Positions 362 to 27,637 are shown, numbered from the stretch's first letter. The stretch: 37,225 bases of DNA from a virus (IMGVR_UViG_3300028837_001131:1-37225), one strand, 5' to 3'. Notes: generated by a model from the letters alone, not told the origin. Numbers and translations: made by a program.

Positions 362-3148
362 TCAGACTAGCTCTGCCAGATAATGAACGATCAGCTTCTC
401 CCCACCCGCTGGCGCCGCCGCCATCGTGAAGCCATCGAAAGTCCCAAGTTCCACGTAATCCTCGGCCACGCCATCGATTTCCTCGTCCCTCTGATGGAAT
501 ACCCGAAGTGTCTCAGGTTCGAACTGATTCGCAGTGAGGAAGGTGACCTTAACACCGTTGCATTCAGCCGACTTGTTCTCCTTGTAAATGTGTAAATGCG
601 TCCCTTCCAACCCCGGTGCTTCCTCAGGTCGCCATTCCCCGGCGATCTCATCCCAGACATACACATCCCCATCATCGGGTGCCGCGGCGCTTATCGCGCG
701 GCCCTTAAACCAGCCTGCGTCCTGCTCGTCGGCAAGCACGCCTGAGAGGTCGGTGACATCGATCTCATCCGCTCCACCCTTCTCGTGCTGGCCGTGATGC
801 GAGCCCGCGGCCACCTGCTCATTGCCAGTTCCCACACTTGGCTCCAATTGCGGCCAGGTGACCTGCCCAGGTAGGCTCCCCATCGCTGGCAAGCCAGGAT
901 CGGTCCAGACTTCTAATATCCCCCGCACGCCGCCGCAGTTGTACGGGATGCTATCCCCGCCTCCCGTGTCGATAGTGCAAGCATTCGCGCCCGCCTTCAA
1001 GACCATCGTCTGCCCCTCGTCCTCAGAGGCGAAAACCACATGGCAGGTCTCGGGAGGCGAGGCCACATGCCCGCTCCATTGCCGAAGCAGATAGAGGAAA
1101 TCCGGCGCGGTCTGCACCAACGAGATGCCGAGATGATCTTCGCTGTGTTGCGGCGTCGGCTCCTGCCAGGAACCGCCGTCGTCCCTGGTGGTATGCAGGT
1201 GTTGGGAAACTTGCCCCGCTCCCACCCGTACCGTCTGGCGCTCGTCCATCGCTACGGAGAGATGATAATATGTCGCGCCTAGCGGGGCTCCCATCGGCTC
1301 CGAGCCGTTCAGGTCGTAGTCGTTAATGGTCGCTCCATGATCGAGGCTTACCGCGACGTGCCAGGGACCGGCACCATTCCGCACTCCCACGAAAACCCTC
1401 GACTGGTCATTCGGATCGACCAAGAGATGGCAGGTGTAGCTGCCCGCTCCTATGCCCGCGCCATAATTCCAGGTCGCGCCGCCGTCCAGCGTGATAGCCA
1501 GCCTGGGCGTGGCGTCCACGCCGCAATACATCACCTGGCCCGCGGGATAGGGCGAAGTGCCGATGTACGCCCCGACGGTCAGAGAGAACGGCGTGATCCT
1601 GCTGGAGATATTCCAATCCTCAATGATGCTCTCGTTCCAGGTCGCCCCGAAATCGGGGGAGTACATCATGGCGAGCTTGACATGCGTATGGGCCAGGTTG
1701 GTGGTGCGGAACAGCACCGCCACGAAACCCTCGCGATTGATATTGCAATTCAGCCCGTTGGGGCCGAATATGCTCCACGTCACATCGCCTCCGGTGATCG
1801 CCACGGCCTGGGCCAGGGTCAATATGGAGACCCAGTTTCCCCCGTCCTCCCGACGATACAGCGCGTCCTCCATCAGGCAATACTGTCGTGTCTCCGGGTG
1901 AAACGCATCGCCCCGGAAACCGAGACAATCATGTGCCAGGTTTAGCCCCGTGTTGATAGCCGTCCAGGTCGGCACGCCATGAATGTAATCCGTATCGGTC
2001 ACGAAGCCATCGGTATAGAAGACCCCCAACTCCTTGGTGGCGATGTAGACCTTCTGTATCCAGTTCCCCTCTTTCGGCGGCTCGTACGGCGGCGGGTTAG
2101 GCGGGTAGTGGGGAACATCCGGCAGCGAGGGGAAATCGGGACGTCCCGGCTGGTCGCGGTAGCCCAACCGCAAATCAACGTAGTATTGCGGGTTCCCTGG
2201 TTCGTAGCCCTCCGTGCAGCGCAGGATGGCCCGGCGGATGGAATAGCTATAGTCTATGTTGTGGACGGAGTTCACCAGGCGGATGTTCATGCCCGCCCGC
2301 AGGCCCGGTATCCAGCAGCGTAGGCGCGGCTCGTAGGCGGCCCAGGCATGGAGCGCCAGATACCAATCGCCATACCGTTCTGCCTGCTCCTCGGTGTTGA
2401 TGTTGCTGTCCCGGACCACGGCCTGATAGCGTTTGCCTCCGTAGTGGGCGATGCTGGCCGCGTCCTCACGCCACACGGCGAGACCATTGCCGACCACTAG
2501 CACGTTGTTGCACAAATCGGAACTATCACGGCGGCGGCGGAAACGGGAATAGGGGAAAAGGGTCACGCTATCGGGTTCGGTGCTGAGACCCACCGGAGCG
2601 GCCAAGCCCTCGTCGGCGGAGAAGTAATGCAGACGCTGATAGAAGTCCACATAGTACATCCCACCCGTCTTGCGGCAGATGTGGTCGAGCGCCTCGCGGA
2701 TGGTGATGCTGGCGAAGTGCATCTCCGCCATGGCCACCTCGAGGGTGTCCACATGCGTCACGCCGTCAATCGGCACGCACCAGGCGGCGAAGATGCCCGC
2801 GATCATGGCGCTGTCGGAAGTGCCCGCCTCGAAGAAGGAATTTACGCAGATGTGCTCCTCGAGCTGCACGGTATAATCGCTACCCCGCACGGTGAAGACG
2901 CGGAACGGGCCATCGTGCTCGTCCTCGATGATATTTACCCATCCGCCGAAAAGCCGCGTGGGGCCGTCATCTATCAGCACCTCGCTCTTCTCGGCCAGCT
3001 CGATCCACGCCAGCTCGCCCAGCTTGTCCTCGACTTTGAACACGCAGGTCGCGGCCAGTGCGCTGCCGGAGCTTTCCACCCGGATGCTTTTCTGGGGGAC
3101 GTGATCGACGAGATCCACGCCCGCGATGCGGATGGTCAACGCGGCCAT
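362..3148 (-). CDS. Baseplate/tail protein with Asp-box (BNR) beta-propeller
   Basis: A 928-aa protein directly downstream of the tape measure gene. Residues about 1-340 look like a baseplate hub or tail-tip domain (late-control/gp44-like layout, with a conserved-looking LEEHICVNSFF segment). A proline-rich hinge (PNPPPYEPP) follows at about 350. Residues about 365-720 carry six Asp-box-like motifs at roughly 431 (REDGGNW), 496 (SPDFGATW), 553 (TLDGGATW), 601 (SLDHGATI), 653 (TRDDGGSW) and 707 (SEDEGQTM). Such motifs mark beta-propellers of the sialidase/BNR type. The C-terminal about 150 residues resemble phage tail-fibre attachment segments (GGADEIDVTDLSGVL, then WDEIAGEWRPE). The likely role is baseplate plus host-surface recognition. 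Glycan binding or cleavage by the propeller is inferred from the fold; I saw no catalytic set that proves hydrolysis. Confidence 0.8.
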   Translation of the reverse strand: MAALTIRIAGVDLVDHVPQKSIRVESSGSALAATCVFKVEDKLGELAWIELAEKSEVLIDDGPTRLFGGWVNIIEDEHDGPFRVFTVRGSDYTVQLEEHICVNSFFEAGTSDSAMIAGIFAAWCVPIDGVTHVDTLEVAMAEMHFASITIREALDHICRKTGGMYYVDFYQRLHYFSADEGLAAPVGLSTEPDSVTLFPYSRFRRRRDSSDLCNNVLVVGNGLAVWREDAASIAHYGGKRYQAVVRDSNINTEEQAERYGDWYLALHAWAAYEPRLRCWIPGLRAGMNIRLVNSVHNIDYSYSIRRAILRCTEGYEPGNPQYYVDLRLGYRDQPGRPDFPSLPDVPHYPPNPPPYEPPKEGNWIQKVYIATKELGVFYTDGFVTDTDYIHGVPTWTAINTGLNLAHDCLGFRGDAFHPETRQYCLMEDALYRREDGGNWVSILTLAQAVAITGGDVTWSIFGPNGLNCNINREGFVAVLFRTTNLAHTHVKLAMMYSPDFGATWNESIIEDWNISSRITPFSLTVGAYIGTSPYPAGQVMYCGVDATPRLAITLDGGATWNYGAGIGAGSYTCHLLVDPNDQSRVFVGVRNGAGPWHVAVSLDHGATINDYDLNGSEPMGAPLGATYYHLSVAMDERQTVRVGAGQVSQHLHTTRDDGGSWQEPTPQHSEDHLGISLVQTAPDFLYLLRQWSGHVASPPETCHVVFASEDEGQTMVLKAGANACTIDTGGGDSIPYNCGGVRGILEVWTDPGLPAMGSLPGQVTWPQLEPSVGTGNEQVAAGSHHGQHEKGGADEIDVTDLSGVLADEQDAGWFKGRAISAAAPDDGDVYVWDEIAGEWRPEEAPGLEGTHLHIYKENKSAECNGVKVTFLTANQFEPETLRVFHQRDEEIDGVAEDYVELGTFDGFTMAAAPAGGEKLIVHYLAELV

Positions 3149-7859: not shown

Positions 7860-8351
7860 TCAGAACTTCTTCGCTGCCCGCTCCACGGCCTGGCTAATCA
7901 TCCGGCGCACGGTATCCGCCTTGATCCGCACCGCATTCTCTAGGATGTGCCTGGCCCGCGTGCCGGGATGCTGCACCGACTTGACCGTGATGGTTTTCCC
8001 CAGCTTCGCCCAATAGAAACTCAGCGCCTTTTTCCGCTTGGCCCTTATGATGTGCGGGGGCGTGCCTAGTTCGATATAGGGCGCATATTTGACCCTGCTC
8101 CCCACACGCCCGACGATCTCCGCCCCCAATGTCCTGACCTCATGGATCCCCTCCTTCGCACGGCTAGTTGCGCCGATGCTTGACATGTATCGCCCTGTGT
8201 CCACTGGCGCGGTTTTCTTTGCCTGGCTGGCGATAACATTCAAGCCGTCTTTTATCGCCTGCATCACTTCGGCACGCTGGATTTCGTTAAAGCCGTGCAG
8301 TTTCTTCAACACCATGTCTATGCCCTTGATATCGATGCTGACCTCAGGCAA
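7860..8351 (-). CDS. HK97 gp10-like head-tail/minor tail protein
   Basis: A 163-aa protein with the layout of the HK97 gp10 family: an N-terminal IDIKGIDMVLKKLHGF segment, a helix, then ASQAKKTAPVDTGRYMSSI (the conserved K-x-x-A-P-V-D-T-G motif), VKYAPYIELGTPPH (conserved Y-A-x-x-x-E-x-G-T) and a basic helical C-terminus. These proteins act at the head-tail interface. I place the start at a TTG (8351) that overlaps the previous stop by eight bases and has GGGAGG seven bases upstream. The longer open frame upstream reads as non-coding, and the next ATG is about 13 codons in. The next gene follows closely. Confidence 0.85.
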   Translation of the reverse strand: MPEVSIDIKGIDMVLKKLHGFNEIQRAEVMQAIKDGLNVIASQAKKTAPVDTGRYMSSIGATSRAKEGIHEVRTLGAEIVGRVGSRVKYAPYIELGTPPHIIRAKRKKALSFYWAKLGKTITVKSVQHPGTRARHILENAVRIKADTVRRMISQAVERAAKKF

Positions 8352-8973
8352 TCGTGATCCTCCCCTCGATGCTCGCCAGCAACACCCGCACGGTCTGGCC
8401 CAATGGCTCGTGATAGAGTATCTGGCCAAGTTCCGTGATGGCCGACTGCTCCTCAAACATCTGCTTGCCCCCCTGGAGGAGGCGGGCCACTAGAATGATG
8501 CAGCTCTCCTTGACCGGTTCCGGCGTCTCGGTGTAGCCCCCCCACAGCGCCGTCACGATGATGTTGCGCTGCCCGTCCGGCCAAGTGGAGTAAGCGCCAT
8601 ACTCTTTCACCACTAGGCAAGCGATATATGACGTGTTGTAGGGCCAGCCGATAAAATCGGTCTCCTCCACCCACTCCGTCAGCGTGGCGTCGCTCTCCTC
8701 GATGTGGACGCTGTCGATGCTGGTGCAGCGGTCAATCCATTGCTCGCCCTCCACGCTCCCATCGTAGCGGTGTATCTCCGCCACCCCGTAACCCGCGGCA
8801 TCGCCGTTATTGTAGTAGCTCACCGGCACGCTCTTGTAGTTGTCGATCCAGCGGCTTACCACCGGGATGAGAAAATCTATCAGGGTATCCTCTGCCGGAT
8901 CGCCTTCGGCCAGGTGGCCTTTGATCTCGGCGCGGCTGCAATAGCTCTGCGGGTTGGTCGTCTCGTAGCTCAT
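8344..8973 (-). CDS. Head-tail connector (gp6-like adaptor)
   Basis: A 209-aa protein whose start ATG overlaps the previous stop (ATGA). It opens with YCSRAEIKGHLAEGDPAEDTLIDFLIPVVSRWIDNY, the helical pattern of connector/adaptor proteins that dock under the portal (a short loop, then helices with D-x-x-I-D-x-x-I). Later segments include TPEPVKESCIILVARLLQGG, the typical P-x-x-V-K-x-A/C helix of this family. It resumes the normal head-tail order after the interrupting sugar-modification cassette: the capsid genes lie on one side of that cassette and this gene on the other. Confidence 0.8.
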   Translation of the reverse strand: MSYETTNPQSYCSRAEIKGHLAEGDPAEDTLIDFLIPVVSRWIDNYKSVPVSYYNNGDAAGYGVAEIHRYDGSVEGEQWIDRCTSIDSVHIEESDATLTEWVEETDFIGWPYNTSYIACLVVKEYGAYSTWPDGQRNIIVTALWGGYTETPEPVKESCIILVARLLQGGKQMFEEQSAITELGQILYHEPLGQTVRVLLASIEGRITIA

Positions 8974-9902
8974 TTATTCCGCCTCTCCTCATCCGAGACG
9001 GCCTTGTTCCGCGCCGCCTTTCTGGGTTTCCGCAAGGCCAGATCCGCCCCGGTCATCACCTTCGGCGTTCTCCGTTTACGCTTCCTCCCAATCTGTTCCA
9101 GCATCATCTCCGCCCCCGTCTTCGACTTCACCCTTGCTGGCCTCCTTCCCCTGTTCCGTATCTGGCTGGCCAAAAGCATCAATTCGTCCCCCGTCAACAC
9201 CCGCCCCCGGCGCTTCTTAAACTTCCACGCCGTCCGCTGGCCGAACTCATGGAACAGCACTTTGGCCTGGCTTGGAGCGTTAGTATTCCAGGTGTAGGGC
9301 ATGGTCAGCACCAATGCCTTGCTCCTGGCGATCGCACGCAGGAGTGCCATCTGCTCATCCCACGCTCCGAAGCGCTGCCATTCCTCGCCCCACAATCGCA
9401 ATAGTTCCTCCACCCGCCCGTTGCGCTTCCAGAAAAGCATCCCGGAATTGTGGTAGAGTATGAATTGCGCCCCACCGAATAGCCCCCGCGTGTATTTGGC
9501 CTCGTTCTCCCCGACCATGTGCTGGAGGATCGTGCGGCCACCCGTCTCCGCGACCAGGAAATCCCAGCGCTCCAGAAGGTCGAACCCCAGTTGCGGGCTT
9601 CCCCGGAATGTCGTGTCGGCGTCCACATAAAGCGTCTGCTGCCATGGCGATAGATGATAGAGGTACGGCTTGATTCGCCCGGCGAGGAACTCCACCCCGC
9701 GGAACGGGTCGATGGTCATCTCCAATTTCGTCTCCAGCCGCTTATCACCCTTGAGTTCCTCCTTCAGCACCTCCACGCTCTCGTCGCCCACCGCCAGCAC
9801 GGGCATGTCCGGCTCCACTTTCCAGAGGCTGGCGATGCTCTGCCCCGCGGCCCAGACCGCCTTGTCACCCCATACCATGTAGACCACACCTCGATCACTC
9901 AT
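8970..9902 (-). CDS. Glycosyltransferase (GT-A, GT8-like) with basic triple-repeat tail
   Basis: A 310-aa protein. Residues about 1-225 form a GT-A nucleotide-sugar transferase: an N-terminal YMVWGDKA segment, the DxD metal/nucleotide motif as D94-A-D96 (TLYVDADT), YHNSGMLFWKR, the WDEQMALLRAI helix, PYTWN and a late FHEFG segment corresponding to the metal-binding His region of GT8-like enzymes. Residues about 230-310 are a Lys/Arg-rich extension with three related units at about 236, 261 and 283 (TGDELMLLA, TGAEMMLEQ, TGADLALRK) separated by basic linkers. The gene is closely related in layout to the glycosyltransferase at 11230-11883 and lies in the same cassette. Donor and acceptor are unknown; virion protein is the contextual guess. 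Confidence 0.8.
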   Translation of the reverse strand: MSDRGVVYMVWGDKAVWAAGQSIASLWKVEPDMPVLAVGDESVEVLKEELKGDKRLETKLEMTIDPFRGVEFLAGRIKPYLYHLSPWQQTLYVDADTTFRGSPQLGFDLLERWDFLVAETGGRTILQHMVGENEAKYTRGLFGGAQFILYHNSGMLFWKRNGRVEELLRLWGEEWQRFGAWDEQMALLRAIARSKALVLTMPYTWNTNAPSQAKVLFHEFGQRTAWKFKKRRGRVLTGDELMLLASQIRNRGRRPARVKSKTGAEMMLEQIGRKRKRRTPKVMTGADLALRKPRKAARNKAVSDEERRNK

Positions 9903-10041
9903 AAGGATATAACGGCCTCCATATACGGTCTGCCAATCTACTCAATCCTGCGACAATTAACACTATGCCTGCCCACGCGAACACACTTGCAAAGATACCG
10001 ACAATGGCCGCACAAATAGTCACGCCAATTTCGAACATCAT
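9895..10041 (-). CDS. Small single-span membrane protein
   Basis: A 48-aa ORF starting MMFEIGVTICAAIVG, with one hydrophobic helix (about residues 5-35) followed by a basic segment RLADRIWRPLYPYE. It starts two bases after the radical SAM stop, with GGAG upstream, and its end overlaps the next glycosyltransferase start. It is therefore translated as part of the cassette. Its function is not recognised. Membrane anchoring or transport related to the neighbouring sugar enzymes is possible but not shown. Confidence 0.6.
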   Translation of the reverse strand: MMFEIGVTICAAIVGIFASVFAWAGIVLIVAGLSRLADRIWRPLYPYE

Positions 10042-10042
10042 G

Positions 10043-11233
10043 TCATCTCCATCGCTTATAGAGCTCTTCGAACTGTCTTCGGGCCAAGAGCAATTCCCTG
10101 CCGGAAAGCGCCTGCGTCCGCACCATGCAATCGTATCGTCGCGGGTCGGCTTTGTAGTATGTCGGCACCGAATTGTGCCATTCCACGTCGTACCGCTCCG
10201 GATGGTTATGGATGGGACTCCCGGGATAGATGCTGAGGATGGTGAAATCCACATCATCCAATCGTGTCTGCAGGAGAAACTCTTCGGTTTCCCCCACGCT
10301 CTGCCAATCCTCGCCCGGCAAACCTACTATGAAGAACCCCTTGACCCGCAAATCCGCGGCCCTCAATGTCCCGATGGCCTCCCGTATCTGCTCGACCGTC
10401 TCCCCCTTCTGGATGTTCCGCAGTATCCGTTCGCTTCCGCTTTCGATGCCGATGCCCACCTCCACACATCCGCCATCCTTCATGGCCGTGGCTATCTCCG
10501 GCGTCACCTGGTCTCCCCGCATCAGGCAGCGCCAGACGATGCCTTCGCTCCCCAATTCCCCGCAGAGCCTTCCCAAACGCTCCCTATCTAGCCCCAGCGT
10601 GTCATCGACGAACATGATCGCCCGGAAACCCGCAGCCTTTATCTCACGCGCCTCCATCATGATGTTCTCGACCGAGCGCATATGGACGCGGTTACCCAAT
10701 GGCTTGGAGCAAAAGGCGCATCGGTGTGGGCATCCCCGGCTGGTCATCATCATAGTGGCCGGCAGGCCGTCTATGGAATATTGGTAGCGCCAGGCTTGTC
10801 TCCGGTCGGGGAAAGGCACATCATCTAGGCTGTTGATTCTTTCAGCAGCGGCTATACCCTTCCATTCAGCATCACGGAAGAGATAATCAACCTCCTCCTC
10901 TGCCTCCCCCCGCAGCAGGGTGTCGCAGCCGTAACTGAGCACCTCATCTGGCGCGAGCGTTGCGTGAGGTCCTCCCGCCACGATCCTGGCCTGGGGATTT
11001 ATCGTCCAGATGAGCGGCACCAGTCTTTCCATCCGCTCCGCTTGCGGGGACGTGCCCGTGATGCCGTACACATCCGCATTATCCGGGATCGCATCGTCAA
11101 AGGCCATATCCGCCACGGTCACATCCCAGCCCTTGGCCCGCAGCGCGGCTGAGACATACCAGAGACCCAGCGGAGGGAAGACCGTATCACTTATCATCAT
11201 CCCCGTCTTGGGGTTTATCAGGCACGCCTTCAT
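10043..11233 (-). CDS. B12-binding-domain radical SAM enzyme
   Basis: A 396-aa protein of the BchE/methyltransferase-like class. Residues about 1-130 match a cobalamin-binding Rossmann domain (PPLGLWYVSAALRAKGWDV, VYGITGTSPQ, VAGGPHATLAPDEVL, LLRGEAEE). Residues about 155-350 are the radical SAM barrel with the cluster motif C168-PHR-C172-AF-C175, followed by VDDTLGLDRER, GIESGSERILRNIQKG and VKGFFIVGLPGE, all typical of the class. Such enzymes methylate unactivated carbons or rearrange substrates by a 5-deoxyadenosyl radical. It overlaps the upstream glycosyltransferase by four bases (ATGA), so it is part of one translation-coupled cassette. The substrate is unknown; a sugar or glycoprotein is inferred from the neighbours. 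A radical SAM gene amid phage head/tail genes is unusual. Confidence 0.85.
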   Translation of the reverse strand: MKACLINPKTGMMISDTVFPPLGLWYVSAALRAKGWDVTVADMAFDDAIPDNADVYGITGTSPQAERMERLVPLIWTINPQARIVAGGPHATLAPDEVLSYGCDTLLRGEAEEEVDYLFRDAEWKGIAAAERINSLDDVPFPDRRQAWRYQYSIDGLPATMMMTSRGCPHRCAFCSKPLGNRVHMRSVENIMMEAREIKAAGFRAIMFVDDTLGLDRERLGRLCGELGSEGIVWRCLMRGDQVTPEIATAMKDGGCVEVGIGIESGSERILRNIQKGETVEQIREAIGTLRAADLRVKGFFIVGLPGEDWQSVGETEEFLLQTRLDDVDFTILSIYPGSPIHNHPERYDVEWHNSVPTYYKADPRRYDCMVRTQALSGRELLLARRQFEELYKRWR

Positions 11234-11883
11234 GCATCCCCCCTCGGTGGCCGGATACTGGCCTGCGCCGCCTGGCTCCCGTAACGATGATAGATCAGCC
11301 TCGTCTCCTCCCTCCGGTTACAATTCCAGGTGTAGGGGAGGGTGAGGAAGGCCATCTCCGAGCGGGCCAAAGCTCGCAGCAAGGCAGCCTGCGGGTCCCA
11401 ACTCCGGAAGCGCGCCCATTCCTCATGCCAAAACTCGAAGAATTTTCTCACCGTCTCCCCACGCCGCCAGAGGAACATGCCACCGTTGTGGTAAAGCAGC
11501 CACCATGCGCCGCCGAACATCGCACGCGTGTATTCCATCTCCGGCTCCTCGATCGTCCGGGAGAGCAGATGGCGCTCCGGCGTCTCCGCCAGCACGAAAT
11601 CCCAATTGTCCAGGAGATCGAACAGTGTTTCCGGAGAGGCCAAGAATTCGGTATCCGCATCCAGATACATGGTGCGCTCCCAAGGCGAGGCCCCATAGAG
11701 GTAGGGCAGTAGGCGACCCCAAAGGAATTTGTCGCCATCGAATGGGGAGACCGGCAATTCTCCAGCATCCCCGATCCTCAATACTGGCATGTCCGGCAGC
11801 CAGCGCCGCAGGGAGGCCACACTATCCTCCGCTTCCTCCGCCGCCCGTTCGCCATACACGATATACATCACGCCTCGACTCAC
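11230..11883 (-). CDS. Glycosyltransferase (GT-A, GT8-like)
   Basis: A 217-aa protein, single-domain relative of the 8970-9902 enzyme without its basic tail. I choose the GTG start at 11883 (GTGA overlap with the previous stop; purine-rich GAGAGGCGG upstream), because the peptide then begins SRGVMYIVYGERAAEEA, matching SDRGVVYMVWGDKA of its paralogue. The DxD motif is D75-A-D77 (TMYLDADTEF). Further matching elements are WDFVLAETPE, LLYHNGGMFLWRRG, WDPQAALLRALARSE, LPYTWNCNRR and a C-terminal IYHRYGSQ. It probably transfers a sugar from a nucleotide donor. Genomic setting between a methyltransferase and a radical SAM enzyme suggests a short biosynthetic series. Confidence 0.8.
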   Translation of the reverse strand: MSRGVMYIVYGERAAEEAEDSVASLRRWLPDMPVLRIGDAGELPVSPFDGDKFLWGRLLPYLYGASPWERTMYLDADTEFLASPETLFDLLDNWDFVLAETPERHLLSRTIEEPEMEYTRAMFGGAWWLLYHNGGMFLWRRGETVRKFFEFWHEEWARFRSWDPQAALLRALARSEMAFLTLPYTWNCNRREETRLIYHRYGSQAAQASIRPPRGDA

Positions 11884-12467
11884 TTCCGCCTCTCGAATGC
11901 GATGGTCCACCCGACTTGCCCGCGGTAAAACCATTTCTTGCCATCCCACCAACGGGTCACCGCCTTCGCGACGCCGGGCACGGAGGGGAAAAACATGTCA
12001 TGCAAAGCGATATAGCCACCCACCTTCACTAAGCCGCCCCAGCCTTTCAGATCTCGAAGCACCTGCCGATAGGCATGGCTCCCGTCTATGAACAGCATCG
12101 CGATCTCGCGCTCGCCGTAAAGTTCCAGTGCCTCATCCGAAGTCGTGGCGAAGAGCTCCGGCGGCTCCAGGCCGATCCGGGCCAGGTTCGCCAGCCATTT
12201 CTCCTGCGTGGCCTCCGGGTCGCGCCACTTGGGGGCCATATGCTCCGCGCCGAACGGCTCGATGGTGGTGAGATGAGCCTCCCAGGGCTTGGCCGCCATC
12301 TGCATGATCGCCGTGGTGCGCCCCATCCACGCGCCTATCTCCACTAGGTTGCCTCTGCGCCGTGAGAGACGATAGAGCCACCTGGCCTCGTTCTTACCGA
12401 ACATCCCCGGTATCATCCAGGCCAGCTTCAGCATGACCTCTAATTCAGTTCTCTTCGGTCCCGCCAT
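11880..12467 (-). CDS. Class I SAM-dependent methyltransferase
   Basis: A 195-aa protein. The ATG at 12467 overlaps the previous stop (TAATG); the longer open frame upstream is the shadow of the neighbouring gene. It has motif I as GNLVEIGAWMGRTTAIM at about residues 44-60, an acidic residue after the second strand (LTTIEPFG), ALELYGEREIAMLFIDGSHAYRQVLRDLKGW (the I-D-G-x-H element of Methyltransf_24-type enzymes), and LVKVGGYIALHDMFFPSVPGV. Enzymes of this type methylate hydroxyls of sugars or small molecules, sometimes amides. It is the stand-alone counterpart of the N-terminal domain in the next upstream gene. Confidence 0.8.
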   Translation of the reverse strand: MAGPKRTELEVMLKLAWMIPGMFGKNEARWLYRLSRRRGNLVEIGAWMGRTTAIMQMAAKPWEAHLTTIEPFGAEHMAPKWRDPEATQEKWLANLARIGLEPPELFATTSDEALELYGEREIAMLFIDGSHAYRQVLRDLKGWGGLVKVGGYIALHDMFFPSVPGVAKAVTRWWDGKKWFYRGQVGWTIAFERRK

Positions 12468-13681
12468 TATCCTGGTGCCCCCTTCCTCGCCACAGTACGA
12501 TGTTTGTGATAGACGAAGCGCGCCTTGTCCTTCCGGTGCGTGTTCCATTGCTCCCTCATGGGCGCGATCCGCACGGGATAGCCATACAGCGCCCGCATCA
12601 AAGCCATCTGGTCCTGCTTCCCCCAGCGCAACCATTGGGTATGCCAGTTCTGAAAGAAGCGGCGGTTGCGCTGGTTCCGGGTGAAACCAATCACGCCCGA
12701 ATTGTAGTATTGCACCTCCGCCGTCCCGATCTCTGCCACGGTCTGATCCACCTCCGCAGGCATGAGCGCGGGCCAGCTCACCCGGCTGAGTATCCTGTTC
12801 GGGTCGATCGCCAAGACCACATCGAAGAAATCCAGAAGCGTGAACGTGGACATGCTCGCCCCCACCACCACGCAATCGGCATCGAGATAGAGCGTCTTGT
12901 GGAAGGGCGAGAGCGAATACATCCGGGTCTTCACCGCCCTCGCTCCCGCGTCGAGGTCGGGATGATAGATGTGGTAGTCGCTATCAATTTCCAAGCTCTC
13001 GTTCCCCACCGTCGCCACGGGCAGCCCCGGCATGTGCTCATGCAGGGAACGGATGGCTTGCTTAGCCCCCTCTCTTGCCTTGGAGCCATAGGCGACGAGT
13101 AATGCCCCCCGGTCGGCTAACATATTTCGGAAGGCGATTGAAACGCCAGACCGCTCGACCTCGATCCATTCCCTTGCGTGCTCTTGCCACTCGTCCACCA
13201 CCTCCTTCACTTCTGGCCTGTCCAGGCAGCGTTTGTGCGCTTTGCCATAATCGTGAAACACCACCGCGCCGCCCGGCTTCACCTTCGGGAGCCAATTGTC
13301 GATATCCGCTTGCACCTCCTCCCGGCTGTGCCCCGCGTCCAGATGCAGCAGGTCTATCTCACGCTCGAAATGCTTCGCGGCCTCATCGGTAGTCATCGCC
13401 AGCAGGCCTTTGGGCATCAGGCCGAGTTTCTTGAGGTTGGCCCTGCATTGCGCCTCCGTCGCGCCTTTGTAGCCTCGATGTTTCATGCTCCCGAAGCTAT
13501 CCACGCCGTATACGTCCGCCTTCGGGTTGGCCAGCATCATCGCGGCCAACGAGCGGCCCTTGTAGCAGCCCAGCTCCACGATGACCTCCGCGGAACGGGC
13601 CATGCGGATGAGCAGAGCCGTCTCCGAGGCCGTCATCAGGCCGGGGATGCCTTTGAGCTTTTGCTGGATGCTATCGGTCAT
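12467..13681 (-). CDS. Methyltransferase-glycosyltransferase fusion
   Basis: A 404-aa two-domain protein and first gene of the cassette (ATGA overlap with the small gene before it). Residues about 1-185 are a class I methyltransferase: EVIVELGCYKGRSLAAMM (motif I, 32-49), YGVDSFG, then IDLLHLDAGHSREEVQADI (the D-x-x-H pattern of Methyltransf_24) and VKPGGAVVFHDYG. Residues about 190-404 are a GT-A glycosyltransferase with D267-A-D269 (TLYLDADCVV), VQYYNSGVIGFTRN, WGKQDQMALMRALYG, REQWNTHR and a terminal FVYHKH. Both activities on one chain suggest that a transferred sugar is methylated, or that two modifications are coordinated on one target. The two domains resemble the separate genes that follow it, so duplication and fusion within the cassette is plausible. 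Confidence 0.8.
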   Translation of the reverse strand: MTDSIQQKLKGIPGLMTASETALLIRMARSAEVIVELGCYKGRSLAAMMLANPKADVYGVDSFGSMKHRGYKGATEAQCRANLKKLGLMPKGLLAMTTDEAAKHFEREIDLLHLDAGHSREEVQADIDNWLPKVKPGGAVVFHDYGKAHKRCLDRPEVKEVVDEWQEHAREWIEVERSGVSIAFRNMLADRGALLVAYGSKAREGAKQAIRSLHEHMPGLPVATVGNESLEIDSDYHIYHPDLDAGARAVKTRMYSLSPFHKTLYLDADCVVVGASMSTFTLLDFFDVVLAIDPNRILSRVSWPALMPAEVDQTVAEIGTAEVQYYNSGVIGFTRNQRNRRFFQNWHTQWLRWGKQDQMALMRALYGYPVRIAPMREQWNTHRKDKARFVYHKHRTVARKGAPG

Positions 13682-13905
13682 AGCTCGAACTCGAATCCTT
13701 CCCAGACATCGGCATTGATGTATTTCTGCTTGTCAGGATAGGCGGCTATGAAAGTTCTGATCGTCTGCTCGATCCCATCGGGGATGGCCACGAAGGGGAT
13801 GGGCACCTCGAAACGCAGATATCGCCTTCCCACCGTAGCTCCGCAATGCGCCATCGCCTGTGTTGTCTCCAGCACTATACGGTTCACATGAATCGTGATG
13901 GCCAT
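13678..13905 (-). CDS. Small hypothetical protein in the virion operon
   Basis: A 75-aa protein starting MAITIHVNRIVLETTQAMAH, with AGGAGG five bases before the ATG. A mixed alpha/beta profile is visible (RRYLRFEVPIPFVAIPDG, then EQTIRTFIAAYPDKQKYINADVWEGFEFEL). It lies at the boundary between the capsid-side virion proteins and the sugar cassette and overlaps the start of the methyltransferase-glycosyltransferase gene. I do not recognise the family. Confidence 0.6.
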   Translation of the reverse strand: MAITIHVNRIVLETTQAMAHCGATVGRRYLRFEVPIPFVAIPDGIEQTIRTFIAAYPDKQKYINADVWEGFEFEL

Positions 13906-13914
13906 CCCACCCTC

Positions 13915-14457
13915 CTAGATAGATAGATTCTCCAGCACCCCCACGGCGCACTCCGGGCGGCGGGTGGCGCCTGCCGTGACCGGGCAGGGATCATCATATG
14001 CGCCGTAGCCGATGGAGTTGTTGAACCAACGCCCGAGAAGGCTGCTGCTGTCGCGAAAACCAGTGTAGGTCGCCGCCACATCGTCCCCCATAATCCCGAA
14101 CCAATAGAGGCCGGGCGGGAGCGTGGTCACGGCTACCGGCACGATTTGAACATTGGCAGTGGCAGCCTGCGCAACCGAAGCACTCTCTACTATCAACGCG
14201 CCGCCATCGGGAATGTCGCCCGCGGGGCCGTCCTCGTAGAGCGCCACGCGGACATTGCCTGCCTGGGCGGCGCCAACCATGTAGAGAAACTCATCAGTCC
14301 TGACCGGCCATCGCACCTCAACAGCGGCTATGAATACCCTACCGGCCGCCCCCACCGCGGCACTCGCCCTGTCGAAGCCCATGCAAATGCCGTAGAACCA
14401 GCGGGTGTAGGCCACCGCTTCCGCAAGCGAAGGATTGATTATTCCCGGCCCGCCCAT
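13915..14457 (-). CDS. Virion-associated beta-sandwich protein (putative)
   Basis: A 180-aa protein that begins with an ATG overlapping the previous stop (TGATG at 14459-14455); an in-frame GTG three bases earlier is the alternative. The body is rich in Ala, Gly, Val and aromatic residues, with strand-like segments AGRVFIAAVEVRWPVRTDEFLYMVGAAQ, VRVALYEDGPAGDIPDGGALI and LPPGLYWFGIMGDD. The A-x-V-R-V-A-L-Y-x-D pattern is common in carbohydrate-binding-like phage surface proteins and is also seen in the 36082-37125 protein. Its place among head genes suggests a decoration or surface protein. Function is not proven. Confidence 0.6.
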   Translation of the reverse strand: MGGPGIINPSLAEAVAYTRWFYGICMGFDRASAAVGAAGRVFIAAVEVRWPVRTDEFLYMVGAAQAGNVRVALYEDGPAGDIPDGGALIVESASVAQAATANVQIVPVAVTTLPPGLYWFGIMGDDVAATYTGFRDSSSLLGRWFNNSIGYGAYDDPCPVTAGATRRPECAVGVLENLSI

Positions 14458-14786
14458 CACCGCACCCCCTCGGCCTCTTGGATGGCCAGATTCTTCTCCC
14501 CCGTTCCCCCATGCCTGCCATAAATGGCCTGCGTGGTGAGCAGCGGGTTGAGGATGTTCAGCGCGCCGCCATTCGCCACCAACGCCACGCCACGCTCACT
14601 GCCTGCTGGAACGGTCGTCCCCACCGCGGGTCTCCCTCCGAAGGCGAGGCAGATGGTCGCATCCGAAGTGTTGGTTATCAACACCGCCTGGCGATGCGGG
14701 TTAGCGATCACGACCTGCCGCCATTCGCTGCTAACCATCGCGGCGCGGGTAGGGGGCAGAAAATTGAGTCGTTCAGCATCAGCCAT
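14457..14786 (-). CDS. Small virion protein, beta-sandwich type (putative)
   Basis: A 109-aa protein. The ATG at 14786 has AGGAGG five bases upstream, so the longer open frame is rejected. The sequence includes WRQVVIANPHRQAVLITNTS, DATICLAFGG, TVPAGSERGVALVANGG and IYGRHGGTGEKNLAIQEAEG. This style (strand, N-T-S-D, G-x-x-A, then P-A-G and I-x-A-I/Y-x-x-G, L-x-x-x-E) recurs in small phage head or surface proteins of unknown role. It is the third gene after the capsid gene. Confidence 0.6.
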   Translation of the reverse strand: MADAERLNFLPPTRAAMVSSEWRQVVIANPHRQAVLITNTSDATICLAFGGRPAVGTTVPAGSERGVALVANGGALNILNPLLTTQAIYGRHGGTGEKNLAIQEAEGVR

Positions 14787-14865
14787 ATAAACCTCCTCTG
14801 TATGGGGGAAGGCCCGCGACGGCCCAGAGGGATGAAACCCCCGCAAGCCCTCCCCGCTATTCGGT

Positions 14866-15348
14866 TCAGTCCACGACTTCGGTCACGTAGGTGGTCGTGA
14901 CGGGCAGATACTCCGCAATGCCTCGCAGAGCCGCCACGGCCGCTTGAGCTGTGTCGCCCGCGCTAACCGTGATGCGGCAGGCTAGGAAATTGAAGCCGTT
15001 ATTGACGTCCATCTCCTCCGCCCGCACATTTACCCGCACCTGATCGTCCTCGGTGGCAAAATCCGCCCCCGCGATAATCTGCGTAGCCTGCTTCGCCCCC
15101 CGTCGGCCCGCGAGCGGCTTCGCGCCCGTGCCCGCGTTGTCCGTGGCCTGCAACACCGCTATATCGACAGCAGTTGCGGCATCAGCCATCTCGCCAAGCT
15201 GCACGAGGAATTCCGCCCAGCGATAGCCCGCCATAGTGACCCAGGCCGTATCGGTGTCCCCCGCGGCCAAAACCTGCGGACGTAGCACATTGGATTGTGC
15301 ATCACCGTCAGTCCTGACGGCTTCGTAGTTAGTTGTCGTAAAACTCAT
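14866..15348 (-). CDS. Head protein next to major capsid (putative decoration protein)
   Basis: A 160-aa protein, ATG with AGGAGG seven bases upstream, directly after the capsid gene (10-base gap). It is Ala/Thr/Val/Asp-rich and looks mostly beta: WVTMAGYRWAEFLVQLGEM, AVDIAVLQATDNAGTGAKPL, FNFLACRITVSAGDTAQAAV. Genes in this position often encode capsid decoration or cement proteins, which bind the outside of the expanded shell. No signature motif was recognised, so the assignment rests on context. As an exposed abundant protein it would be a reasonable target for the sugar-modifying enzymes encoded downstream. Confidence 0.6.
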   Translation of the reverse strand: MSFTTTNYEAVRTDGDAQSNVLRPQVLAAGDTDTAWVTMAGYRWAEFLVQLGEMADAATAVDIAVLQATDNAGTGAKPLAGRRGAKQATQIIAGADFATEDDQVRVNVRAEEMDVNNGFNFLACRITVSAGDTAQAAVAALRGIAEYLPVTTTYVTEVVD

Positions 15349-15358
15349 GTTTTGCCTC

Positions 15359-16624
15359 CTAGCTCGTATCGCCCAGGATCAGGAACGGCGAAACGGTCGT
15401 TCCCTCTTGGGTTGGTATCGGCGCGTTCAGCCACGGGTTGCCATCCAAGCGGTTAACGACCTTGAACGCCGTCTGGTTGTGCCGGAACAGGTAGTGCTCC
15501 GAGCTGGCGATGGTGATGCCCCCCCGCTGGCCGATCACGTAGTAGCTGAAATCCGCCAGCATGACATCGCCAGGGTTCCCCAGCCCGGTCAGCTTCTCCG
15601 TCCAGACGATGGGATAGCCGAGCACCTGGTTCGCCATACCCGCTGCAGCCGCGCCCCCAAAGGCGGGCCAGATGTAGTTGCCCGCCGGGTCCTGCATGGT
15701 GCGCAGAGACGGCTTCACCGAAAGGGTCATCACCCAGATGGGGTTAGCCCCCGGCAATAGCTGGGCGTCCAGGTTCACAAGGTCCTGGTAGCCCACCGCA
15801 CCCGCGGCCGCGCGCGGAACCACGATGGTCGCGGGAGCGCCGATGACACCACGCGGCTGGCCCACGCCGCTGCCTTGCAGATAGGCATAATCCCGATACC
15901 ACCGGGAACCGTCGCCGAAGATGCGGTTGAACAGCGGCGGCAGCGATATGGCCGCATCCGCCAGCAGGTTGTCGCTCACCGGCAGGTAGCCCGTGAGGTC
16001 GTGCGCCACCAGCGTTTTCTGCCGGAACTTGACCTCTATCTCCGGCTTGCCCTCCGCCTCCTCGGTCCACTCGAACACCGCGCCGCCGAAGAAGTTGGTC
16101 TGTCCGGTCGGTGTCGCGATGGTGGCGTAGTCCAGCGCGGGTATGTCGAGCTGCCTGCGGGCCATGGGGATGACTAGGGCACGGGGTTCCACGATTGCGC
16201 CCTCACCCATGATCTGTAGCAGAGTCGCCTCGAACTCCACGGGCACTAGGAAGCCGCCCAGCGCGCCCGTCCCCTCGACTAATTGCTTCTTCAGCCGGGG
16301 GTCGAGGCCGTGGCCCATCCGGAAGGAGTGGGTTTTTTGAAGGAACTCGCCCACATTTTTCCAGTCGCTTGCGGGTGGCTCGGGGTCCTGGGTTTTCGGG
16401 CCGGTCCCACCCCAGAAGTGGTCATACACCTCATCCGCCTCTGTGCGGAGGGCCTCCACTTTTTCAGCTTCGGCAATCTGCGTCCGGAGCTCACTGATCT
16501 CGTCCATCTTGGCCCTGACTTCCGTCTGGATCTCGATGGGCACTTCCGCGGGGTGCTCATCCATGATCACCTTGACTTCTTTGATGAGCAGCGCCACTCG
16601 TTCACGTATTGCGTTGAAATCCAT
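15359..16624 (-). CDS. Major capsid protein, HK97 fold
   Basis: A 421-aa protein preceded by GGAGG six bases from the ATG. Residues about 1-95 form a charged coiled-coil delta/scaffold domain (ERVALLIKEVKVIMDEHPAEVP, SELRTQIAEAEKVEALRTEAD) that the protease should remove. The mature part begins around KKQLVEGTGALGGFLVPVEFE, the usual start of HK97-type capsids (G-G-F/Y-L-V-P). Later landmarks are FEWTEEAEGKPEIEVKF (the E-loop region), VSDNLLADAAISLPPLF, YLQGSGVGQPRGVIGAP (typical G-x-G-x-x-Q-P-x-G-I/V), LSVKPSLRTMQDPAGNYIW, LGYPIVWTEKL and the C-terminal strand VVNRLDGNPWLNAPIP. All of these fit the family. Confidence 0.95.
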   Translation of the reverse strand: MDFNAIRERVALLIKEVKVIMDEHPAEVPIEIQTEVRAKMDEISELRTQIAEAEKVEALRTEADEVYDHFWGGTGPKTQDPEPPASDWKNVGEFLQKTHSFRMGHGLDPRLKKQLVEGTGALGGFLVPVEFEATLLQIMGEGAIVEPRALVIPMARRQLDIPALDYATIATPTGQTNFFGGAVFEWTEEAEGKPEIEVKFRQKTLVAHDLTGYLPVSDNLLADAAISLPPLFNRIFGDGSRWYRDYAYLQGSGVGQPRGVIGAPATIVVPRAAAGAVGYQDLVNLDAQLLPGANPIWVMTLSVKPSLRTMQDPAGNYIWPAFGGAAAAGMANQVLGYPIVWTEKLTGLGNPGDVMLADFSYYVIGQRGGITIASSEHYLFRHNQTAFKVVNRLDGNPWLNAPIPTQEGTTVSPFLILGDTS

Positions 16625-17956: not shown

Positions 17957-20056
17957 CTAGACCTCCTCAATCTCGGCCAATACCGTGCATCTACAATTCA
18001 CGTGCAGCGGGGGGTAGCCCACATCCCAAAGCACTTTGAGGCCATGCCCATTCCCCTCCGCATCGTAGGTCATCATTTCATCGCCTTTGCCATACCAGTT
18101 CCGCCCAATATCGATGACCTTGTTATGCATCTCCATGCACCATGGGCACGTCCGGTCGTCCTGCGCGGTCCACCAGCGGATGACCTTGACCCCGCTCAAA
18201 CGCATGGCTTCGGTCGCGCCGGCGTTGGAGCTGCGAATGGTCTCGGTGCGGGCGATGCCCTCCGCTCTCACGCGGTCGTTCTGTTCCCAGGTCTCATTGA
18301 TCGCCGCCCTCAACTCGGGCACGCTCCAACCCTCCGTCTGCGCCTGAGCCACCAACTCGTTGACTTTGGCCGCGTCAACCTCGAATAGAGCTTCGGAGAA
18401 CTGCATCGAGTAGCCATCCAGGAACGCCTGCACCTCCGGCAACTCCACGTCGAAAGAGATACCGAACGTGGCAGCGATGTTCTCCGCCTGCGCCCCTAGA
18501 AGCACCTGGAACAGCGGTATGAATGTGGTGCGCCAGTCTTCCTTCGCCACCTTTAGCAGATACTCCAACGCGCCCTGCTCGAAGATCGTGAACGGTATAG
18601 CGTCCTTGCTGGCCTTGCCGATCTTGCGCAGCATGGCCAGAAGCTCACGCTGATCATCCTGGAAGCGGAGGGAGGCGGCGCGCTTGAAATCCGGCTCGAA
18701 AGCCCTCGCGGTCGTGTCAAGCGCCTTCCACCACAACATCTCCCTGGCTTCATTCTGCGCGGCCTTCAACGCCAATGGCTCGGGCCGCTCGATTATCACC
18801 GGAATGCTCTTGGCTCCCTGCAGCAACGCGGGTGTGCTCACGGTCATCATTGGCCGCAGGAATATGTCGCCATCGGCCACGGGGGATGCCCCGATGGCCT
18901 CGCGTGCCTCGTTCACCGTGATGTAGCCCGCCTGGAAGTCCTCACGTATGCGGAGGTGCAATTTGGTCTCATCTTCCTGGAGGGCCTTCACGGTGGAGAA
19001 ATCCCAGCGCACCCGCACGTCGCTGCCGAATTCAGGTGCGAGTTGAAGATTGATTATGTCCGCGTGGCGGGTATAGACGGGCATTAGGGTTTCCTGCCAG
19101 AAACTCTCACGGGCCTCCCGATAGTTGGAATACGTGGCGTGCTGCAATCCCACCAGCGCGCCCACCAGGATGGGGGGCACCTGAAACGCGGTGCATATTC
19201 GGCTTTCCGCCACCGCGCGGACAGTGGGCATCTCCACCTCACCTGGCGGAAGGCCCACCTGCTCGTAGGTAACCTGCTGCTCATCGAGTACCATCACGTT
19301 GTGCCAGCCGTCCTTGCCAGCGTATTGATCGTGAAAACGCTTCCGGATGCGCTTCACCTCCGCCTCATCCACCCGCTGCTTGGATACCAACAAGCCAAAC
19401 GGCACCGCGCCATTGTCGAAAAACGCGCCCACGTAATCGGTAAGCACCTTGTCCACACCGGCCATCCCCATCACGACCTCTAGCGGGGACAGCCCTTCCA
19501 ACTCCTTGCGGGGATGGGAATTCTTGAATTGGAGTACGTCATCCGGCTTGAGATCCTCAGTATCGCCACTGCCGAATGTGACCCGCCAGCCCTGCAACTC
19601 ACGCCGCCGCCCCGTCTTCGCCAGCAACGGCTTCACGCGGTCGGGCCAGACGGGCCAGAGGGCCACCACGCGGCCCGCCCTTGACCGCTCCTTCTCGTAG
19701 TACATCTCGCCCGCGATGGCCTCGAACATCGTCACGTCATGCCAGAATTCGTAGGCGGTGCTGCGGGGGTTGGGGCGCTCCAGAAGCAGCGCCAGGGCGT
19801 GCTCCTCGGTTTCCGCCCAACCGTTCCGTGTCCGTTGTTCCACCACCAATCTCGGTTCCGCCGCGCTAGTGGCAAGCTCCTCCACGCAGCCATACACGAG
19901 CGCGTTCTTCTCGTAGAATTCCTGGCTGAGCGCTTGGAACGAACCCCCGCCGCTGTAATAGGTCCAGGCTTTTGGGTTCGTCCACAAGCCGATGACGGCC
20001 TTGCGACGCCCCAGCGCCATGTCCATCGCCATCGTCAGGCGTTCCATCAGACCCAT
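17957..20056 (-). CDS. Portal protein fused to MuF-type head morphogenesis domain
   Basis: A 699-aa protein. Residues about 1-410 are an HK97-type portal: a start region with TYYSGGGSFQAL, then VYGCVEELATSAAEPRLVVEQ, HALALLLERPNPRSTAYEFWHD, DVLQFKNSHPRKELEGLSPLEV, AFFDNGAVPFGLLVSKQ, FQVPPILVGALVGLQHATYSN and FWQETLMPVYTRHADIINLQL, all typical. The portal is the dodecameric DNA gate and terminase dock. Residues about 540-699 are a MuF domain with GIARTETIRSSNAGATEAM, then DRTCPWCMEMHNK and VGYPPLHVNCRCTVLAEIEE (the conserved C-P-x-C and P-P-x-H-x-N-C-R-C motifs). MuF proteins enter the head in few copies. I choose the ATG at 20056, with GGGGAG six bases upstream; the open frame above it is a shadow of the terminase gene. 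Confidence 0.92.
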   Translation of the reverse strand: MGLMERLTMAMDMALGRRKAVIGLWTNPKAWTYYSGGGSFQALSQEFYEKNALVYGCVEELATSAAEPRLVVEQRTRNGWAETEEHALALLLERPNPRSTAYEFWHDVTMFEAIAGEMYYEKERSRAGRVVALWPVWPDRVKPLLAKTGRRRELQGWRVTFGSGDTEDLKPDDVLQFKNSHPRKELEGLSPLEVVMGMAGVDKVLTDYVGAFFDNGAVPFGLLVSKQRVDEAEVKRIRKRFHDQYAGKDGWHNVMVLDEQQVTYEQVGLPPGEVEMPTVRAVAESRICTAFQVPPILVGALVGLQHATYSNYREARESFWQETLMPVYTRHADIINLQLAPEFGSDVRVRWDFSTVKALQEDETKLHLRIREDFQAGYITVNEAREAIGASPVADGDIFLRPMMTVSTPALLQGAKSIPVIIERPEPLALKAAQNEAREMLWWKALDTTARAFEPDFKRAASLRFQDDQRELLAMLRKIGKASKDAIPFTIFEQGALEYLLKVAKEDWRTTFIPLFQVLLGAQAENIAATFGISFDVELPEVQAFLDGYSMQFSEALFEVDAAKVNELVAQAQTEGWSVPELRAAINETWEQNDRVRAEGIARTETIRSSNAGATEAMRLSGVKVIRWWTAQDDRTCPWCMEMHNKVIDIGRNWYGKGDEMMTYDAEGNGHGLKVLWDVGYPPLHVNCRCTVLAEIEEV

Positions 20057-21369
20057 ATTCCACTCCCCTGGTACTGCTGCATGGCCTGCAGGACCGCGTC
20101 GGCCTTGTCGGGTGAGGGCAAACCCCGCTTCTTCATGTCGTCTTTGCTCTCCAGAAGGAGCTGGCCGCGGGCGTTGAATTTGTAGCGCAACGAGGCCAAT
20201 TGGCTTTTGAGCTCCTGGTCGGGGGGTATGTCTATGTCGCCATCCTCGAAGCGCTTGGCCAGACCCAAGAAGTCTTCCGCTCGGCGGTTGGCGTACCGCT
20301 CGGTGTTGCGGGCCTTCTCCCCCGCGCCATAAGCGGTCAGGCGGGGGCGATACGGCTCTATCCCATCCGGCGTCTCCACCGTGCCCCAATCCTCCCAGTG
20401 GTTGAGCTGGTCGTAGACGCCCGCGCCCACGCCGACAACGTCCACCACCACGTGATCTGGGTGGTGCTGCATCATCAGGCCAGCCACATCCCGTGTCGTC
20501 TCCGTGGTGTCCTTCTGGCCCCATTCCGCCATCCAGAGAACCTTCGGACCGCGACGCGCGGCCACCACCGTCTTGTCGTTCCCGAAGCGGGCCACATCCA
20601 CGCCAAAACTGAGGCCCAAGCTCATATCCTCGTCCAGATCACGGTCGGCAGCGGCGTTGATCCGGCGGTAGGGAATGAGGTAGTCCACGCCCCGAATCAC
20701 ATCCCAGTCGCCCTCAAGCAGCGCCCGAGCGAGGTCGTCCGGGAGCTGCCGCCGAAGCTCGTCCACATAACCGGGGGGAAGGTGGGGATTATCCTCGGGG
20801 AGGCTCTTGACGAAGCGATGGTTGGGAAGCTTCTGCTCGATCCACCGCTCACGCACCCAACCCTCCGAGGGGTTGGCGGTGAATAGCGCTTTGTAGCGTG
20901 GCCGTGTCCCGTCGGGGAGGGTATGGCGGAAACGCGTGATGAGCATCATGTAGATGTCGCGTGTCGTCTCCTCCGCCTGGTCAATCGCCACCCATCCCCA
21001 TTCGGTCGTCTTGAGGCGGTTGAAGCCGATCTCGTTCTGGCCCAGGCCGCCGTAATAGATGTAGGAACCGTTGATGAGCTCGAAGTAACCATCCGTCATG
21101 TGGTGGCGCTTCACCAACTCGTCGGGAAGCAAATTCTGCAACGTCAGAAACGTGCTGCGCCGGAAGGCCTTATATTCGTGGCGGGCGATGTAGCCGCGGT
21201 TGCCGGGATAGTCGAGGCTAAGCTGGATGATCTCGTTGCAGAGCCAGTAAGTCTTTCCCCCCCCCACCGCGCCGCCCATGAGGATGTAACGTTCCGGCGC
21301 CCTGTGCGCCTCCTGCTGGCGGGCGGAGGGGATGTACAGTTCGCGCAGGTCAATCGTCTGAACCGTCAT
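20047..21369 (-). CDS. terL: Terminase large subunit
   Basis: A 440-aa DNA-packaging motor. The Walker A motif is GGAVGGGKT (residues 32-40), Walker B with catalytic acid is WVAIDQAEE at about 125-134, and an R-x-x-x-P-x-G-x-x-P-R segment (TRFRHTLPDGTRPRYKALFTANP) follows. The nuclease domain starts with SFGVDVARFGNDKTVV at about 250 (the G-x-D-x-A-x-x-G-x-D motif), then HVVVDVVGVGAGVYDQL and a final PDKADAVLQAMQQY at about 423. All catalytic blocks appear intact. It cuts concatemers and pumps DNA into the prohead. Its start overlaps the small subunit by 20 bases and its end overlaps the portal. Confidence 0.95.
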   Translation of the reverse strand: MTVQTIDLRELYIPSARQQEAHRAPERYILMGGAVGGGKTYWLCNEIIQLSLDYPGNRGYIARHEYKAFRRSTFLTLQNLLPDELVKRHHMTDGYFELINGSYIYYGGLGQNEIGFNRLKTTEWGWVAIDQAEETTRDIYMMLITRFRHTLPDGTRPRYKALFTANPSEGWVRERWIEQKLPNHRFVKSLPEDNPHLPPGYVDELRRQLPDDLARALLEGDWDVIRGVDYLIPYRRINAAADRDLDEDMSLGLSFGVDVARFGNDKTVVAARRGPKVLWMAEWGQKDTTETTRDVAGLMMQHHPDHVVVDVVGVGAGVYDQLNHWEDWGTVETPDGIEPYRPRLTAYGAGEKARNTERYANRRAEDFLGLAKRFEDGDIDIPPDQELKSQLASLRYKFNARGQLLLESKDDMKKRGLPSPDKADAVLQAMQQYQGSGIWV

Positions 21370-27542: not shown

Positions 27543-27637
27543 TCCCCCCACAGCCATGCCAGCAGCTTGACCAGCAGCCTGAGCAGCAGAATGCTGCCGA
27601 TAGTGAGTGCGAGGGCAAGCCCGGCGAGCGGGGTCAT
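27539..27637 (-). CDS. Tiny single-span membrane peptide
   Basis: A 32-aa ORF starting MTPLAGLALALTIGSILLLR, continuing LLVKLLAWLWGE, so almost entirely one hydrophobic helix. Start overlaps the previous stop (ATGA) and stop overlaps the next start (ATGA), which argues that it is translated. The ribosome site is the AGGAG about seven bases upstream. Role unknown. Confidence 0.5.
   Translation of the reverse strand: MTPLAGLALALTIGSILLLRLLVKLLAWLWGE

Follow-up and report, generated by a model that had tools for sequence, protein, structure and literature searches.

A virus record of 37,225 bases from IMG/VR (IMGVR_UViG_3300028837_001131; the whole stretch is referred to as the window, and coordinates count from its first base) encodes a cassette of methyltransferases, glycosyltransferases and a B12-type radical S-adenosylmethionine (SAM) enzyme between the genes for the capsid and the head-tail connector. 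We propose that this cassette is probably expressed late and serves to glycosylate the virion of this uncultured tailed phage itself, using O-methylated and radical SAM-tailored sugars. The glycan chemistry of the cassette is well supported, and we infer from the position of the genes that its target is a virion protein.

Organization of the cassette

The window genome is of the siphovirus type. Its structural genes occupy the minus strand and start with terminase, portal (which has a MuF-like end), protease and capsid; small proteins and the cassette follow, and then the head-tail adaptor, Neck1 and a series of tail genes. An initial annotation, made from the sequence alone, had described six translation-coupled genes at 8970-13681 between head proteins and connector. 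All six are present on the minus strand in that order and place, with the capsid and protease genes upstream and the phrog_442 adaptor and phrog_5 Neck1 genes downstream:

12467-13681, minus strand: methyltransferase-glycosyltransferase fusion, 404 amino acids (Pfam Methyltransf_24, E=2e-18; GT8, E=3e-4, sub-threshold)
11880-12467, minus strand: stand-alone methyltransferase, 195 amino acids (Pfam Methyltransf_24, E=3e-16)
11230-11883, minus strand: putative glycosyltransferase (GT2 copy) with a GTG start and a DADT motif, paralogue of the other two glycosyltransferase domains (Nucleotid_trans, E=8e-4, sub-threshold)
10043-11233, minus strand: B12-binding/radical SAM enzyme, 396 amino acids (Pfam Radical_SAM, E=9e-26; B12-binding, E=2e-19)
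9895-10041, minus strand: hydrophobic peptide, 48 amino acids, one predicted membrane span (sequence and hydropathy)
8970-9902, minus strand: putative glycosyltransferase (GT3 copy) with a DADT motif and an 85-residue basic tail (fold match to the catalytic domains of UGGT, glycogenin, LgtC and LARGE1)

The frames overlap by 1-8 bases or nearly touch, as had been noted. The fusion gene shares 4 nucleotides (ATGA) with the 75-codon gene that precedes it and 1 nucleotide (TAATG) with the methyltransferase gene; 4-nucleotide overlaps join the methyltransferase and GT2 genes (GTGA) and the GT2 and radical SAM genes (ATGA). The radical SAM gene is followed after a 1-nucleotide gap by the membrane peptide, which overlaps GT3 by 8 nucleotides (ATGAGTGA), and the GT3 stop codon overlaps the adaptor start by 4 nucleotides (ATGA). 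By hydropathy, the five enzymes contain no hydrophobic span, the 48-residue peptide being the only product with one.

Conservation of the enzymes and of their position

A 7.7-kb contig from another sample (L004) carries the fusion, methyltransferase, glycosyltransferase, radical SAM and glycosyltransferase genes in the order and slot of the window, followed by the window's adaptor, Neck1, terminator-like and tube-like genes. The protein identities to the window are 73% (fusion), 64% (methyltransferase), 49% (GT2), 58% (radical SAM) and 56% (GT3), and 41-60% for the structural proteins. The ratio of nonsynonymous to synonymous differences (pN/pS) between the two ranges from 0.29 to 0.52 for the cassette enzymes and from 0.36 to 0.56 for the adjoining structural genes; since synonymous sites are near saturation, only the comparison between the two sets counts. 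By this comparison, the five enzymes appear to be under purifying selection as strong as that on the structural genes. The membrane peptide is missing from L004, where the radical SAM stop codon leads straight into the next glycosyltransferase gene. Of the six genes initially grouped together, the five enzymes are thus retained as the conserved set, and the peptide was dropped as a functional part. A search with capsid and tail-tube relatives for cassette-free kin returned only near-identical fragments and L004.

Scanning with the glycosyltransferase alignment yielded 78 further viral loci, corresponding to 64 clusters at 90% nucleotide identity. A capsid gene, mapped with two capsid queries only (PF05065 was too narrow for the purpose), is located on the same strand and no more than 5 kb upstream in 37 of the 64 clusters and downstream in none. 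On contigs of at least 15 kb it is upstream in 19 of 32 clusters, as against about 6 expected by length (binomial 1.5e-7, the clusters not being fully independent). Four contigs of uncultured siphophages (L133, L137, L140 and L147) show the order capsid, methyltransferase-glycosyltransferase fusion, methyltransferase, glycosyltransferase, in some cases a small protein, and connector, and two more (L138 and L149) carry the left part of this layout before their truncated ends. The fusion orthologues of L133, L137 and L147 are 43-62% identical over parts of their length and the methyltransferases 42-46%. The gene set first noticed in the window therefore recurs between capsid and connector genes elsewhere: as a whole in L004, as the core trio in these six contigs (after the capsid gene, and ahead of the connector wherever the contig extends that far), and as radical SAM-containing glycan islands in other lineages, described below.

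GT2 and GT3 of the window are each closest to the single glycosyltransferase of the core-trio contigs, from which we infer that the window lineage duplicated this gene and acquired a radical SAM gene in the space separating the two. A search of plasmids returned no match, and a glycosyltransferase match was absent from 395 genomes of one phylum in a search run without a positive control. A second arrangement that recurs among uncultured phages is seen in L175-L208 (for example L194:5863-10518 and L188:3748-8720), where the capsid gene is followed by one small protein, two glycosyltransferases, a protein of about 520-620 residues with a glycosyltransferase match, and then the connector.

Methyltransferase and glycosyltransferase domains

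The fusion protein comprises a methyltransferase domain (about residues 1-180) and a GT-A-like domain (about residues 190-400) with a DADC motif. Its methyltransferase domain and the stand-alone enzyme score 67.5 and 60.8 bits with Methyltransf_24 (PF13578), whose cut-off is 26.3, and the motif I reported for each is present (VELGCYKGRS and VEIGAWMGRT). The three glycosyltransferase domains are paralogues in which the reported DxD motif (DADC or DADT) is present and aligned in every copy. The fusion scores 21.0 bits against the Pfam GT8 cut-off of 24.3, the two stand-alone enzymes score under the cut-off for Nucleotid_trans, and a window glycosyltransferase had no sequence match in the PDB. 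A GT3 model of moderate confidence (predicted local distance difference test, pLDDT, 64) suggests a GT-A fold, with Foldseek matches to the catalytic domains of UGGT (E=2e-8), glycogenin (E=7e-8), LgtC and LARGE1. With these GT8/GT24-type GT-A enzymes the window glycosyltransferases share the DxD motif and, for the modelled GT3, a fold match; they differ from them in scoring below the family cut-offs.

The basic tail of GT3 contains 29 lysine or arginine residues among its 85. Its counterpart in L131/L133/L137/L147-type phages is a small protein, fused or separate, with weak similarity. This small basic protein is encoded immediately ahead of the connector, either after the glycosyltransferase or as part of it (L131:1462-1830, L147:8770-9180, L133:8001-9317 and L137:7950-9194), and some of these proteins have a helix-hairpin-helix-like C-terminus.

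The B12-type radical SAM enzyme

The radical SAM protein has a class B architecture, with an N-terminal B12-binding domain and a radical SAM core that both score above the Pfam cut-offs. The C-x3-C-x2-C motif reported earlier maps to residues 168-175 (C168-x3-C172-x2-C175), and its cysteines are invariant in 31 relatives. An AlphaFold model (pLDDT 93) matches the solved structures of AprD4 (Z 34), MgmA (Z 32) and OxsB (Z 30), and the range for these together with CysS and TsrM is Z 27-34. Structure prediction and homology searches agree with the enzyme classes of the initial annotation, the radical SAM enzyme being closest to AprD4 and GT3 having a predicted GT-A fold. The best-scoring NCBIfam models include those for AprD4 and HpnJ, and all scores stay far under the equivalog cut-offs; the curated AprD4-type family NF033070 reaches 107.6 bits where 500 are required.

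AprD4, GenK and GenD1 are examples of radical SAM enzymes of the cobalamin-binding class B with sugars as substrates (PMC5461906). The window enzyme shares the combination of B12-binding and radical SAM domains with these proteins and with HpnJ, and differs from them in being encoded by a phage within a structural operon. Its GGPHAT and GEAE/GEGE stretches can be aligned with the B12 domain of MgmA, whereas the B12-like domain of AprD4 aligns weakly there; the MgmA-like alignment is suggestive of cobalamin binding and methyl transfer. Because AprD4 is not known to require cobalamin, the fold match does not settle the chemistry of the window enzyme, and as AprD4, the closest structure, is a sugar diol dehydratase, C-methylation is one option among others. 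We would hold C-methylation to be roughly twice as likely as dehydration. No AprD3-like reductase was recognised in the cassette.

An alignment-based scan for the radical SAM enzyme returned 38 viral records, in many of which the gene belongs to a glycan island inside a structural module, and genes of the glycosyltransferase family GT2 occur in 22 of 28 radical SAM viral records. In L003, L016, L018-L025 and L032, runs of 10-17 glycosyltransferase, methyltransferase and sugar genes end in a radical SAM gene, followed by neck-like and tail genes. These islands begin after the capsid gene, as tested with phrog_29 for the record of L003 and for L016; several contigs stop short of that gene. In L027, glycosyltransferase, methyltransferase and radical SAM genes precede phrog_442 and then phrog_5, the same families that flank the window cassette. 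Other layouts are capsid, glycosyltransferase, radical SAM and methyltransferase/carbamoyltransferase (L014 and L015) and terminase, sugar genes, radical SAM and portal (L012), with further variants in L013 and L042.

L003:1-11188 together with L009:1-8646 outlines a glycan island within a structural operon. Its roughly 17 genes include those for a GDP-mannose-dehydratase-like epimerase, a cytidylyltransferase, a LicD-like protein, GT4 and GT9 glycosyltransferases, two radical SAM enzymes and several methyltransferases. A NodU/CmcH-type carbamoyltransferase, representing a further sugar-tailoring step, is encoded downstream of the radical SAM gene in the clusters next to the capsid gene at L015:7981-9474 and L014:8024-8208.

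The closest cellular relatives of the radical SAM enzyme (37-42%) are from Geobacteraceae, Desulfuromonadaceae and Omnitrophota, where they neighbour genes for glycosyltransferases, epimerases, a dTDP-sugar isomerase and a GHMP kinase. In a quick tree with weak deep branches, the window, L004, L012 and L013 proteins group with five such bacterial proteins (SH-aLRT 96), and eight changes between viruses and cells are reconstructed, at least three of them forced. The history of the enzyme would thus appear to need several virus-cell exchanges.

A model for virion glycosylation and its alternatives

In the model that we favour, the three GT-A-like domains would transfer sugars, donated by host nucleotide sugars, onto a co-made particle protein and then onto the first sugar, the acceptor being the capsid protein or the small proteins encoded at 13915-15348. 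The two Methyltransf_24 domains would O-methylate these sugars, and the radical SAM enzyme would change a sugar carbon beyond the reach of ordinary methyltransferases, most likely by C-methylation and otherwise by dehydration/deoxygenation. The cassette may have arisen from an ancestral trio of methyltransferase-glycosyltransferase fusion, methyltransferase and glycosyltransferase at the capsid-connector slot, through duplication of the glycosyltransferase gene, with a radical SAM gene inserted between the resulting two. The virion glycan, methylated or otherwise rearranged, that was initially proposed stands in part, as regards a glycan-building and methylating cassette at the head/neck junction, and its virion target is suggested by position.

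Several observations weigh against this model. The radical SAM gene accompanies none of the 78 other glycosyltransferase loci within the DNA examined, so its link to the glycosyltransferase cassette rests on the window, L002 and L004. The glycosyltransferase assignment draws on sub-threshold Pfam scores and the moderate GT3 model. The capsid-adjacent position could mean late expression only. Finally, no nucleotide-sugar enzyme was recognised in the window, and the host must therefore supply the sugar donors.

Alternatively, the cassette could alter a host surface glycan late in infection, for receptor masking, superinfection exclusion or easier release, with its operon slot setting the timing. 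The radical SAM enzyme has its bacterial relatives in cellular glycan clusters, LgtC, a lipooligosaccharide glycosyltransferase, is among the fold matches of GT3, and nucleotide-sugar and LicD-like genes occur in L003 and its relatives. We nevertheless regard this as unlikely. The five window enzymes come without the membrane flippase and polytopic glycosyltransferase of Gtr-type serotype conversion and without a membrane span, and many lineages retain the capsid-adjacent slot, a constraint that timing by itself would not impose. Moreover, the serotype-conversion cassettes that are known have other locations in temperate genomes. Hypermodification of the phage DNA with a methylated sugar has precedent in virus glycosyltransferases that act on DNA, as Pyle 2024 is cited in PMC12619734, and the PHROG matched by the methyltransferase domains is labelled DNA methyltransferase. 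These domains, however, match Methyltransf_24 and not a DNA methyltransferase Pfam family, and the slot is structural, not replicative. A base hydroxymethylase of the thymidylate-synthase fold is absent from the window and was found in 1 of 26 cassette-phage records searched, which may be incomplete; a Tet/JBP search was run without a positive control. The soluble nature of the enzymes, the lack of a flippase or polytopic glycosyltransferase and the lack of a dCMP-hydroxymethylase-like gene make both alternatives less likely, and we hold DNA modification to be very improbable.

Scarcely more probable is direct action of the radical SAM enzyme on an amino-acid side chain of a virion protein, with the glycosyltransferases and methyltransferases acting separately. 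MgmA, its second-best structural match (Z 32), C-methylates a protein glutamine, but AprD4, which matches best, has a sugar substrate, and the relatives of the enzyme in phages and bacteria accompany glycosyltransferase and nucleotide-sugar genes. The least probable alternative that we weighed is that the cassette is carried as accessory cargo, without a selected function on the particle. Other phages with the glycosyltransferase cassette have no radical SAM gene, which is thus dispensable at the family level; yet purifying selection on the cassette equals that on structural genes, and gene order is held across 43-62% identity. Glycosylation of the virion remains our preferred reading.

Relation to known systems

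In mycobacteriophages Che8, Corndog and Myrna, phage glycosyltransferases glycosylate capsid and tail-tube proteins, according to the work of Freeman et al. (2023) that is cited in PMC11256854, PMC12363180 and PMC12619734. The window, with its three glycosyltransferase domains, likewise has phage-encoded glycosyltransferases, and differs in placing a methyltransferase-glycosyltransferase fusion and a radical SAM enzyme between capsid and connector. Among 50,697 isolate-phage records, neither a window glycosyltransferase nor the distant capsid-adjacent glycosyltransferase of L188 found a match, and the fusion matches isolate phages solely through its methyltransferase domain. One methyltransferase match, in mycobacteriophage Boilgate, was set aside, as it adjoins an HNH gene with no glycosyltransferase beside it. 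Given the known modification of virions by phage glycosyltransferases, and the unmatched window enzyme and layout, we take the cassette as a variation on a known theme: phage virion glycosylation has been described before, and the enzyme set with fusion and radical SAM at the capsid slot is new.

Among isolate phages, Streptomyces phage SF3 alone carries a B12 radical SAM relative that is both clear and annotated; its gene differs from that of the window in identity (30%) and in location, beside thymidylate kinase and NUDIX genes and outside the structural module. The open-licence literature yielded no report of B12 radical SAM enzymes in phage particles. If the model is true, virion glycosylation, for which the experimental evidence comes from a few mycobacteriophages, would extend to a wide range of uncultured phages, and the cassette would bring radical SAM chemistry to phage particles and offer candidate enzymes for C-branched or deoxy sugars. 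The capsid-connector slot allows glycan enzymes to be found without homology to known systems. More tentatively, and with somewhat less than even weight, a large unrecognised set of uncultured tailed phages could make its own particle glycan at this junction, several lineages having independently recruited a B12-type radical SAM enzyme for C-methyl or deoxy virion sugars; to our knowledge, no radical SAM step in virus particle maturation would precede this one.

Flanking genes and other features of the window

The genes on either side of the cassette are as follows:

7860-8456, minus strand: Neck1/tail completion protein, downstream flank (phrog_5, E=6e-22)
8344-8973, minus strand: head-tail adaptor, downstream flank (phrog_442, E=5e-10)
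13678-13905, minus strand: 75-residue protein coupled by ATGA to the fusion gene (no family match)
13915-15348, minus strand: three small proteins between cassette and capsid gene (phrog_25864 and phrog_28483, both families of unknown function)
15359-16624, minus strand: major capsid protein, a candidate acceptor, on the upstream flank (phrog_10, E=3e-48)

The true start of the Neck1 frame is probably internal, and the three small proteins are candidate virion surface proteins. Elsewhere in the window, positions 362-3148 encode a large tail protein of 928 residues with weak BNR/Asp-box repeat matches below the Pfam cut-off, and 27634-28374 encode a DUF5131 (phage Gp37/Gp68 family) protein (Pfam E=1e-39). 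The portal frame (17957-20524) shares 478 bases with the terminase frame; since matches to the portal family start at residue 153, the true portal start is probably internal.

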